A stretch of DNA of 64,000 nucleotides from Nesterenkonia aurantiaca (lineage in GTDB: Bacteria; Actinomycetota; Actinomycetes; Actinomycetales; Micrococcaceae). Location: NCBI RefSeq assembly GCF_004364585.1, contig NZ_SOAN01000007.1, forward strand, positions 1 to 64,000, read 5' to 3'. Under the pieces are notes generated by a model. The model was not told the DNA's origin. It saw nothing but the letters and a program-made list of their open reading frames with translations, and did not search any database. Below, in pieces: positions 3,774 through 64,000 of the stretch; position 1 is the stretch's first letter, and every line of letters starts with the position of its first letter. Both the position numbers and the translations under genes were made by a program.

Positions 3774-4583
3774 GTGCTGATCTTCCTGCCGCCCTCCGAG
3801 GGCAAGACACCCCCGAGCGATCCCAGTGCATCCGCGGTGGATCTGCGCAGCCTGATCCTGCCCGAGCTGGACCAGGCTCGGAGCACCGTGATGGACGCGC
3901 TGGTCCAGGTCAGTGCGCAGGAGGACGCGCAGCAGATCCTCAATGTGGGCAAGACCGTGATGCCCGAGGTGCGCGCCAACGCCCACCTCGGCACCGCCCC
4001 CACGGCACCCGCGCACGAGATCTACACCGGGGTGCTCTTCGAGGCCCTGGACTCCGCATCCCTGACCCCCGAGCAGCTGAACCGGGCTACTAAGCAGGTG
4101 CTGATCTTCTCCGGGCTCTTCGGTGTGACTTCGCTCACCGATCGGATCCCGGCCTACCGCCTCTCCATGGGCGTCAGTCTCAGCGCCCCGGGCACTGGGC
4201 AGGGTCCCGGTGCGGCTCCAGCACGTCCCGCACCGGGTCGACTGGGCAGCTTCTGGAAGACCGCCCTGGCCGAGCCGCTGTCCGAACACATCGGTGATCA
4301 GCTGGTCGTGGACTGCCGCTCGAGTTCCTACGCCCAAGCCCACCGCTCCGCGCCGGAACAGACCTTGATGGTCAACAGCTTCACCGAGCGCGACGGGCAG
4401 CGGAAGGTCGTCACGCACTTCGCCAAGCATGCCCGCGGAATCCTCGCGGGGATGCTGCTGCGCACCGAGGGTGCCGAGCCTGAAACGGTCGAGGACGTCG
4501 CCGAGCTGGCCTCCCAGCGATGGCGGGTGGAGCTGCGTCCGGCCACCGCGAGGACTCCGCATCAGCTGGACCTGATCGACTGA
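3774..4583 (+). CDS. yaaA: YaaA family peroxide-stress protein (DUF328)
   Basis: 269 residues starting with LIFLPPSEGKTPP, the N-terminal signature of the YaaA/DUF328 family. Further family marks are ILNVGKTVMPE, YTGVLFEALD, LIFSGLFGV and a C-terminal NSFTERDGQRKVVTHFAKHARG. Escherichia coli YaaA lowers intracellular iron and binds DNA during hydrogen peroxide stress, so a similar protective role is inferred. The start is the GTG at 3774, which places LPPSEGK at the usual position. There is a short acidic/Pro-rich insertion in the middle (SAPGTGQGPGAAPARPAPG). It is divergent from rnpB and probably transcribed alone. Confidence 0.88.
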   Translation: MLIFLPPSEGKTPPSDPSASAVDLRSLILPELDQARSTVMDALVQVSAQEDAQQILNVGKTVMPEVRANAHLGTAPTAPAHEIYTGVLFEALDSASLTPEQLNRATKQVLIFSGLFGVTSLTDRIPAYRLSMGVSLSAPGTGQGPGAAPARPAPGRLGSFWKTALAEPLSEHIGDQLVVDCRSSSYAQAHRSAPEQTLMVNSFTERDGQRKVVTHFAKHARGILAGMLLRTEGAEPETVEDVAELASQRWRVELRPATARTPHQLDLID

Positions 4584-61875: not shown

Positions 61876-63066
61876 CTACGGCGTGCTGCGTGCCACCAGG
61901 ACCGCCCGGCGCGGCGAGTATGCCGGCATCACGCGCAGCGCGGTGCGCACGGCGTCCTGGTCTTCGGCGGCCTCGGTGAGCTGCAGATAACGCCACAGAT
62001 CCTCGGCGGAGCCGTCTGAGAGGACCGCCTCACGCAGCAGCGCCGAGAGTTCCCGGCGCACCCTCAAGACTCCCGGAGCCTCGCTGCCCGGCAGCAGCTG
62101 ACCGCGATAGAGGTCCAGGGCACCCTGCCGGTCACCCGCGGTGAGAGCAGTATGGGCGTCTCGGGCGTCCACCCGCAACGGGGCGCTGAGCCGGTAGGGG
62201 CGCGAGAGCAGGTCGATGCTGGGGGAGTGGTGCTCTGCCAGCAGGCGGCGCAGCCGGACCAGCTCGGCGCGGACCGTCACCTCATGGTCGGCCTCGCCAT
62301 AGAGCAGCACGGCCAGTTCCTCCGCGGTGAGCCCTCGCTCCGATCCGGGCTCCGAGTGCCACCCCAGCAGGAACAGGATCTCCGCGTGCCGCAGACCGAG
62401 CGGCTGATGCGCATCGAAGGTGCCCAGCACGGCCGGCCCGGCCCCGAGTGTGGTCAGTGTGGCCTGCGCCGGAACGGCAGGGTGCAGCCTGAGCTCCGCC
62501 TCCGCCGCGGATACCGCGGCGAGCAGCAGCGGCAGCGAATGGACTGCCACGGCCTGGGCATCTCCGGTCAGATCCACCACGCCCAGCAGCGCTCCGGTGG
62601 AAGGGTCGCGCACCGGCACCGCCGAACAGGAGAAGCGGTGTGCGGTGTAGGAGAAATGCTGCTCTCGGTGCACCTGTGCGCCGCGTCCTGTGGCCAGGGC
62701 GAGGCCCGGGGCCGAGGTGCCGATGGCCCGCTCAGACCAGTTCGCCCCCGGCTGGAAGGCCGAGCGCTCCGCCTGGCGCAGCGTCTCGCGCGCGCCCTCC
62801 ACCCAGAGGAGCCGCCCCGCCGCATCACCGATAGCCACGATGAGTCCAGCCTCGGCGGCCGGCTCGATCAGCAGGCGCTGCAGCACGGGCAGCACCAGCC
62901 GCAGCGGGTGGTTCCTCCGGTACTCCCGCAGCTGGAGCTCGTCGAGCTCGATGGGCGGCAGCGCGCTGATCGGGTCTCGCACGCCCCCGGCGGAACGCAG
63001 CCAGGACTCGCGCAGCGCGTGGGGCAGCGCGGCCCAGGTCTTCGGCTCGGTGGAGAACGCCTCCAT
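61876..63066 (-). CDS. GAF-domain transcriptional regulator (AcoR-like N-terminus) beside an aldehyde dehydrogenase
   Basis: 396 residues from the ATG at 63066, with AAGGAG at 5 bp. The N-terminal region is AcoR-like (ALRESWLRSAGGVRDPISALPPIELDELQLREYRRNHPL), then a GAF domain (about 70-195; NWSERAIGTSAPGLALATGRG, EQHFSYTAHRFSCSAVPVRDPSTGALLGVVDLTG). In place of the AAA+ module of true AcoR there is a winged-helix-like C-terminus (LRHAEILFLLGWHSEPGSERGLTAEELAVLLYGE). It is divergent from the aldehyde dehydrogenase, so it most likely regulates it in response to an aldehyde, alcohol or acetoin. Confidence 0.8.
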   Translation of the reverse strand: MEAFSTEPKTWAALPHALRESWLRSAGGVRDPISALPPIELDELQLREYRRNHPLRLVLPVLQRLLIEPAAEAGLIVAIGDAAGRLLWVEGARETLRQAERSAFQPGANWSERAIGTSAPGLALATGRGAQVHREQHFSYTAHRFSCSAVPVRDPSTGALLGVVDLTGDAQAVAVHSLPLLLAAVSAAEAELRLHPAVPAQATLTTLGAGPAVLGTFDAHQPLGLRHAEILFLLGWHSEPGSERGLTAEELAVLLYGEADHEVTVRAELVRLRRLLAEHHSPSIDLLSRPYRLSAPLRVDARDAHTALTAGDRQGALDLYRGQLLPGSEAPGVLRVRRELSALLREAVLSDGSAEDLWRYLQLTEAAEDQDAVRTALRVMPAYSPRRAVLVARSTP

Positions 63067-63130
63067 GACACTCCTTCGACGCTTTGCGGTGCCCGGGAGC
63101 TGCGTAAGACTGCAGCGCACCACAACTGCG

Positions 63131-63146
63131 TGTGTGCTTGCTCACA
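63131..63146. promoter_or_regulatory. CRP/GlxR-like site, proximal to the GAF regulator gene
   Basis: TGTGT-GCTTGC-TCACA matches TGTGA-N6-TCACA with one change. It is 65 bp before the regulator's start codon. Confidence 0.5.
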
Positions 63147-63153
63147 GTCTAAC

Positions 63154-63198
63154 CATGCAACGGTGCTGCAACCTGAAGAGATCTAAGCTTGTTGCATG
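63154..63198. promoter_or_regulatory. Repeated TGCAAC elements in the divergent promoter region
   Basis: CATGCAAC at 63154-63161, TGCTGCAAC at 63164-63172 and the inverted GTTGCATG at 63191-63198 lie between the two CRP-like sites. They are candidate binding sites for the adjacent GAF regulator. Confidence 0.45.
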
Positions 63199-63212
63199 TG
63201 AGGCAGATCACA
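63197..63212. promoter_or_regulatory. CRP/GlxR-like site, proximal to the aldehyde dehydrogenase gene
   Basis: TGTGA-GGCAGA-TCACA is a perfect match to the palindromic CRP/GlxR consensus arms. It is 67 bp before the aldehyde dehydrogenase start, a usual activator position. Confidence 0.6.
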
Positions 63213-63279
63213 GCGCCGGGCGTGGACTCTCGCAATCCGGGAGGATCCTCCGGCGCAAGGCCAAGAGAAGGAGCCCAAT

Positions 63280-64000
63280 ATGACCATCTATGCCCAGCCG
63301 GGAACCGACGGCGCACTGGTGAGCTACAAGTCCCGCTACGAGAACTACATCGGCGGGGAGTGGGTCGCGCCGGTAGACGGCGAGTACTTCGAGAATCCCT
63401 CGCCGGTCACCGGTAAGAGCTTCACCGAGATTCCCCGTTCCAAGGCCGCTGACATCGAACTGGCACTCGACGCCGCCCACCGCGCCGCGCCAGCCTGGGG
63501 CAAGACCTCGGTGGCCGAGCGCGCCGTGGTGCTGAACAAGATCGCGGACCGGATCGAGGAGAACCTCGAGATGCTGGCCGTGGCCGAGACCTGGGAGAAC
63601 GGCAAGCCCGTCCGGGAGACCCTCGCCGCGGACCTGCCCCTGGCGGTGGATCATTTCCGCTACTTCGCCGGAGCGATCCGGGCCCAGGAGGGCGGGATCA
63701 GCGAGATCGACGGCGACACGGTGGCCTACCACTTCAACGAGCCGCTCGGCGTGGTGGGACAGATCATCCCGTGGAACTTCCCGATCCTGATGGCGGTGTG
63801 GAAGCTCGCGCCGGCGATCTCGGCAGGCAACGCCGTGGTGCTCAAGCCCGCTGAACAGACCCCTGCCTCGATCCTGGTGCTGATGGAGGTCATCGGAGAC
63901 CTGCTGCCGGCCGGGGTGCTCAACGTGGTCAACGGCTTCGGTGCTGAGGCCGGCGCCCCGCTGGCCTCCAGTCCGCGGATCCGCAAGATCGCCTTCACCG
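63280..64000 (+). CDS. Aldehyde dehydrogenase (partial, runs off the window)
   Basis: NAD(P)-dependent oxidation of an aldehyde to an acid. The first 240 residues are present: [29 protein letters not shown], the cofactor-binding [38 protein letters not shown] and [13 protein letters not shown]. The catalytic Glu and Cys lie beyond the window. The sequence resembles the ExaC/AcoD acetaldehyde dehydrogenases, which fits the AcoR-like regulator next door. The ATG at 63280 has AGAAGGAG upstream. Confidence 0.93.

Follow-up and report, generated by a model that had tools for sequence, protein, structure and literature searches.

The window, by which we mean the whole stretch of 64,000 nucleotides that was analysed, corresponds to contig C7:1-64000 of a 2.95 Mb genome, and close to its right end two genes diverge from a shared intergenic region. 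The minus strand carries a regulator gene (61876..63066) whose product of 396 aa combines a DhaR-like GAF domain (model residues 14-196) with a SARP-like wHTH and helical domain (model residues 200-396). The plus strand carries the gene of an ExaC-type acetaldehyde dehydrogenase (ALDH, 63280..64000), which runs past the end of the window. The full ALDH, taken from region L104 and 507 aa long, scored 983.2 bits on the NCBI acetaldehyde dehydrogenase ExaC model (cut-off 900). The regulator is 97% identical to its counterpart in Nesterenkonia sp. E16_10. Of 98 genomes, 64 carry it, and within the genus, leaving the own genome aside, so do 27 of 29. Beyond the right end of the window, on the same contig, a small gene that we take to be DUF779 (L104:6842-7231) lies directly 3' of the ALDH gene, and this adjacency is kept in many relatives. 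In three genomes (G023, G005 and G026), a second, more distant GAF regulator with 33-36% identity lies near the same locus (L080:6281-7192, L082:5140-6039 and L123:2314-3273).

All promoter positions given here depend on TANNNT being read as a -10 element with its first T at -12, so the start sites are putative and would fall near 63139 (minus strand) for the regulator and near 63196 (plus strand) for the ALDH gene. Two CRP/GlxR-like palindromes, listed without strand, stand in the intergenic region. Site 1 (TGTGTGCTTGCTCACA, 63131..63146) has one mismatch to TGTGA-N6-TCACA and would cover -7 to +9 of the regulator promoter, and site 2 (TGTGAGGCAGATCACA, 63197..63212) is perfect and would cover +2 to +17 of the ALDH transcript. 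Both palindromes, starting 66 bp apart, are as an earlier, sequence-only reading of this DNA had described them. That reading had also set each site 65-67 bp from a start codon, which agrees with the 67 bases between site 2 and the ALDH start codon (63280), but on the regulator side we counted 64 bases from site 1 to the start codon (63066). The putative regulator -10, TAGACT (63146..63151, minus strand), has its last T in common with site 1, and the centre of site 1 also falls near -57.5 relative to the putative ALDH start.

The direct and inverted TGCAAC elements that had been reported between the palindromes were found at 63156, 63167 and 63191. The direct copies (63156-63161 and 63167-63172) open two 11-bp direct repeats, which make up a candidate activator box (63156..63177, plus strand) at a predicted -40 to -19 of the ALDH promoter, and the putative ALDH -10, TAAGCT (63184..63189, plus strand), follows 11 bases after the second TGCAAC. 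TGCAAC was ruled out as a -35 element, the copies lying 11 and 22 bases from the -10. The inverted third copy (63191..63196 on the minus strand, GTTGCA on the plus strand) abuts site 2. Palindromes of this kind are rare: with at most one mismatch there are four in the 64-kb window, and perfect ones number six in the whole genome, the reversed pattern giving none in either search. In shuffled intergenic regions, sites with at most two mismatches occurred at 0.05 per region, and two or more were seen in 0.15%. At positions 4124 and 20910, the window has two more CRP-like sites, each of which departs from the motif by a single mismatch.

Conservation was followed in 25 divergent regions of the genus, the window included, which share descent and hence are not independent draws; L010 was dropped as a fetched piece without the ALDH gene, and L027-L030 are not divergent. 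A CRP-like site (at most two mismatches) was present on the regulator side in 24 of the 25 and on the ALDH side in 24 of the 25, L024 being without both, so the conservation in close species on which the sequence-only reading had relied is found. The pair TGCAAC-N5-TGCAAC occurs in all 25 regions, always with exactly 5 bases between the copies and 11 to TANNNT, and with C as its first base in L020. At most two mismatches allowed, the box precedes 25/25 ald and 17/17 adh promoters of Nesterenkonia. The inverted copy did not hold up as a conserved element, since it stands at its place in one of the 25 regions (L014 and L016 carry GTTGCA within the box). It was ruled out as an operator half on the same count, and it is probably a chance occurrence.

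The two palindromes are anchored to different promoters. The downstream site begins 12-17 bases past the first T of the ALDH -10 in 24/24 regions, and the start of the upstream site ranges from -53 to -151 relative to the same -10 (24 regions). On the minus strand, a TANNNT-GTGA is fused to the upstream palindrome through a shared last T in 20 of 24 regions, the exceptions being L022, L023, L025 and L026. Because the offset of site 1 is fixed to the regulator -10 and variable to the ALDH gene, each palindrome appears to belong to its own promoter.

The regulator protein and its modelled fold

By sequence, the regulator contains a DhaR-like GAF domain, with 58.3 bits on the DhaR model against a cut-off of 551 and a PDB match to 4lrx. 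Regulators of at least 340 aa and near-full coverage were kept in sets of 40 (of 52 listed), 37 and 30 sequences, and all 37 members scanned matched the DhaR model. Among the Pfam families of the 40 members (E <= 1), GAF was found in 17 and Trans_reg_C in 13, and no AAA+ family was present. Trans_reg_C was also found in 14 of the 30 C-terminal halves (E <= 10). Pfam BTAD was absent from the families of the 40 members at E <= 1 and of the 30 C-terminal halves at E <= 10, and the regulator is thus not classed as a SARP by sequence. Sequence profiles matched PhoB-type wHTH domains (E 0.0008-0.006) and did not retrieve AfsR from the PDB; the fold search alone did.

The full-length AlphaFold model, built with 37 sequences, had a mean pLDDT of 89.0 and a pTM of 0.54, a value at which the spatial arrangement of the domains is uncertain. 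Its residues 14-196 matched DhaR(N) with a Z of 24.2 over 180 residues, and its residues 200-396 matched AfsR with a Z of 13.8. Modelled alone, the C-terminal half reached a pLDDT of 92.1 and a pTM of 0.88, and Foldseek at E <= 0.001 returned five matches, all of them AfsR or EmbR. The Z values were 13.8 for AfsR 8k60_J, 13.6 for AfsR 8hvr_I and 12.6 for EmbR 2ff4_A. As a group, the AfsR and EmbR matches had a Z of 12.1-13.8 over 184-189 of 199 residues with an rmsd of 4.4-5.0, and domains consisting of a wHTH alone came next at 8.7. Given this large rmsd and an identity of 18-21%, we describe the modelled C-terminal half as having a fold likeness to SARP. An OmpR-type wHTH followed by a helical BTA domain, the order by which we recognise a SARP fold, is predicted in this half.

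These results agree with the earlier proposal that a winged-helix end replaces the AAA+ module, and they add the helical domain behind it. The sigma-54 DBD (PF04552) gave no match in the own genome, which is listed as 99% complete, and the same search was positive in 4 of 14 genomes as a control. The missing sigma-54 fits the loss of the AAA+ half.

The TGCAAC box and its candidate targets

The strict motif TGCAAC-N5-TGCAAC-N11-TANNNT had 57 matches in 47 of 98 genomes, the own genome included, and the reversed control had 0. It was present in 47 of the 64 genomes with the regulator, missing from the other 17, and present in 0 of the 34 genomes without it (Fisher 5.9e-14, a value that is optimistic because the genomes are related). 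In a class-wide scan of 394 genomes, 54 motif matches were found in 46 genomes and the reversed control gave one match, in G380. The regulator profile matched 202 of the 394 genomes, among them 45 of the 46 with the motif, the exception being G344 (Fisher 1.7e-13). A regulator gene is no more than 500 bp away from at least 37 of the 54 class-wide matches. Outside Nesterenkonia, the box (at most two mismatches) precedes 86 of 91 ald promoters, with 5/91 lacking it at that threshold, and a single one of 47 adh genes has it upstream. The box remains with the enzyme gene, its spacing fixed at 5 and 11, both where the regulator is divergent and where it lies upstream in tandem. By this distribution, TGCAAC-N5-TGCAAC-N11-TANNNT behaves as a promoter signature.

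The link between TGCAAC and the GAF regulator that had been suggested is supported by this co-occurrence, the motif tracking the regulator in 47/47 and 45/46 motif-bearing genomes. It could still be argued that the pair is read by a different factor and merely adjoins the GAF regulator, as 17 of the 54 class-wide matches are not within 500 bp of the regulators among the matches listed and G344 carries the motif without a regulator match. With the tracking just given, a repeat geometry that agrees with the modelled fold and a box that stays at the enzyme gene despite changed gene order, we regard such a different reader as very improbable.

Within the own genome, an AdhP-like ADH gene 135 kb away has a copy of the box that differs by one mismatch, and TGTGACTACAGTCACG overlies the -10 of this gene. 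This ADH is 81% identical to the ADH query, which itself scored 370.1 on AdhP (cut-off 344). The ExaC acetaldehyde dehydrogenase and the AdhP-like gene 135 kb off are likely the targets. In 45 class-wide regions, from which matches already fetched for relatives were excluded, 47 boxes were found, of which 29 stand before an ALDH gene, 1 before an ADH gene and 17 before neither (ten of them without assignment). Other genes behind the box include an ethanolamine permease in L231 (540.2 bits, cut-off 381.75), a diol dehydratase small subunit in L245 (202.5, cut-off 183), a propionate or acetate CoA ligase in L217 (a piece) and isochorismatase-like proteins in L226 (scanned, weak) and L243 (by likeness). 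In L234, an EutB-like start (a piece, 4e-39) lies behind a reading frame similar to the L231 ethanolamine permease. Such targets suggest that the signal may be a C2/C3 aldehyde or alcohol. In L253 of genome G377, the box precedes the regulator gene itself by about 400 bases, an arrangement that suggests self-activation in that genome.

The CRP-type sites and the direction of regulation

A CRP-family gene, which the sequence-only reading had required, exists in the genome. It is a GlxR homologue (L032:976-1653, 3.9e-80 to solved CRP-type regulators), and a cyclase domain was also found (40.2 bits, cut-off 21.9). Proteins of M. tuberculosis and C. glutamicum are presumably among the solved structures that this homologue matches, and it is 54% identical, with the stretch RETVNKAL included, to a presumed C. 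glutamicum GlxR sequence. A match to PF00325 in L031 was rejected as a CRP gene, as it falls inside a long frame whose translation resembles another regulator type. A second CRP-family gene with a Crp-type HTH lies on the minus strand at L033:1429-2241, and its existence would favour a reading in which the palindromes are bound by another CRP/FNR-type protein, such as that of L033, instead of the GlxR homologue. Against this, L033 has REGTSKVL where L032 shares RETVNKAL with the presumed GlxR sequence. The motif TGTGA-N6-TCACA is, moreover, the published GlxR consensus as given in an extract of PMC10483779, and we consider another reader improbable.

We scanned 55 promoters from -11 to +45 and found a CRP-like site (at most two mismatches) in 37, versus 1.9% in shuffles. 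Among the 37 sites, 13 are centred on the -10, 22 start 12-17 bases after its first T, and 2 are elsewhere (L087 and L107). A site with at most one mismatch was found within 300 bases upstream of only 4 of 95 tandem-type regulators, which counts against GlxR repression of the regulator gene. In one genome family (L218 to L239), nine promoters have a weak CRP-like site with two mismatches 7 bases past the first T of the -10.

The sequence-only reading had a CRP-type regulator jointly activating both genes. The conservation of both palindromes and the existence of the GlxR homologue and the cyclase-domain protein are in keeping with it, but both sites overlie putative core promoters or start sites. 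The regulator -10 runs into site 1, site 2 begins 12-17 bases past the first T of TANNNT on the ALDH side, and the predicted coverage of -7 to +9 and of +2 to +17 argues for repression rather than joint activation. The AdhP-like gene, with the same box and a GlxR-like site over its -10, counts on the side of repression. In the C. glutamicum ald case, an extract of PMC10483779 places the GlxR sites downstream of the start site and describes a base change in one of them that went with 4-fold more ALDH protein, a case of repression. Joint activation is improbable in our view.

Repression would not be a rule for all promoters. Among boxed ald promoters outside Nesterenkonia, a site stands at -48/-49, upstream of the box, in 32/86 and at -6 in 6/86, and 38/86 have none; the 32 upstream and 38 siteless promoters speak against a general repression rule, and -48/-49 is a position where a CRP-type protein can activate, which counts against the repression account. 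We accordingly argue for repression in Nesterenkonia and at the -6 promoters, on the predicted site positions.

With site 1 near -57.5 of the ALDH start, help to the ALDH gene could also come from this site. GlxR might then have a dual role, in which site 1 represses the regulator yet from about -57.5 aids ALDH activation and site 2 is a brake. The Arthrobacter-type promoters with a site at -48/-49 before the -10 in 32/86 boxed cases lend it some support, as does the GlxR activation through its site that the ldhA work reports (PMC7999487); PMC7026483 likewise describes GlxR as also able to activate. On the other side, the distance from site 1 to the ALDH -10 varies over the range given above with the offset to the regulator -10 fixed in 20/24, and -53 and -48 are half a helical turn apart. 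We consider the dual role unlikely, though less so than joint activation or another reader of the palindromes.

Proposed mechanism and comparison with known systems

The account that we prefer, with moderate confidence, combines a box for a GAF-SARP activator with GlxR operators over both core promoters, GlxR repressing the regulator and the ALDH gene. The intergenic region would control a small regulon for acetaldehyde and alcohol, and the regulator would unite a DhaR/AcoR-like GAF sensor with a SARP-type output half. Judging from the targets, the effector that engages the sensor may be acetaldehyde or a related C2 compound. Once the sensor is engaged, two regulator subunits would bind next to each other on the TGCAAC-N5-TGCAAC pair (-40 to -19), and the bound regulator would recruit the housekeeping RNA polymerase to a promoter that has a -10 and no fitting -35. 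GlxR bound to cAMP would occupy both palindromes, each over a core promoter, and block both genes. By shutting off the activator plus its target, GlxR may serve as a catabolite-type brake.

In a wider sense, Actinobacteria without sigma-54 may have swapped the AAA+ half of DhaR/AcoR for a SARP half, a proposal for which we find the case evenly balanced. It would have given rise to a widespread class of SARP-like activators gated by a ligand, which recognise TGCAAC-N5-TGCAAC-N11-TANNNT and govern acetaldehyde/short-aldehyde metabolism (ExaC and AdhP, and in some genomes an ethanolamine permease, a diol dehydratase and an acyl-CoA ligase), with the GlxR operator shifting between lineages, first upstream, then onto the -10 and then onto the start site. 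If this is true, activation of the SARP type, which is known chiefly in antibiotic clusters, drives primary C2 catabolism as well, with a small-molecule sensor attached, and the short promoter signature allows targets to be listed in actinobacterial genomes. The system would also allow one to study how a global operator shifts position relative to an activator box that stays in place, and its promoter would be a candidate for one that responds to aldehydes or alcohols. In a literature search of open-licence papers, not made by the string TGCAAC, we recognised no description of this GAF-SARP protein or of the box; PMC12838073 was set aside as a precedent, since what it describes is a MarR regulator.

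Among known systems, the SARPs (AfsR of Streptomyces, 8hvr and 8k60; EmbR, 2ff4 and 2fez) share their fold with the whole modelled C-terminal half of the regulator. AfsR, according to an extract of PMC10936776, binds a pair of direct repeats of 11 bp that span -40 to -19, the afs box, and recruits RNA polymerase by contact with sigma region 4. The geometry of the present box is equal to this, as the fixed 11-bp repeat followed by 11 bases to TANNNT would place the repeats just before the -10. In SARPs of small, medium and large size the SARP domain comes first (PMC10972967), whereas in the present regulator the SARP half is C-terminal (200-396) behind a GAF sensor. The TGCAAC sequence of the box, the targets in C2 catabolism and the lack of a Pfam BTAD match further set it apart.

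The sigma-54 activators DhaR and AcoR resemble the regulator in its N-terminal half, by the DhaR(N) match described above. Unlike them, the regulator is without the AAA+ half and scores below the DhaR cut-off, and the genome is without a sigma-54 DBD match. In C. glutamicum, the GlxR-controlled ald likewise encodes an acetaldehyde dehydrogenase and has a CRP-type palindrome beyond its start site, but the extract of PMC10483779 names RamA and RamB as the further regulators there, rather than a GAF-SARP protein. With GlxR-controlled promoters in general, the present system has in common the TGTGA-N6-TCACA sites, a GlxR homologue and a cyclase domain as the putative source of cAMP.
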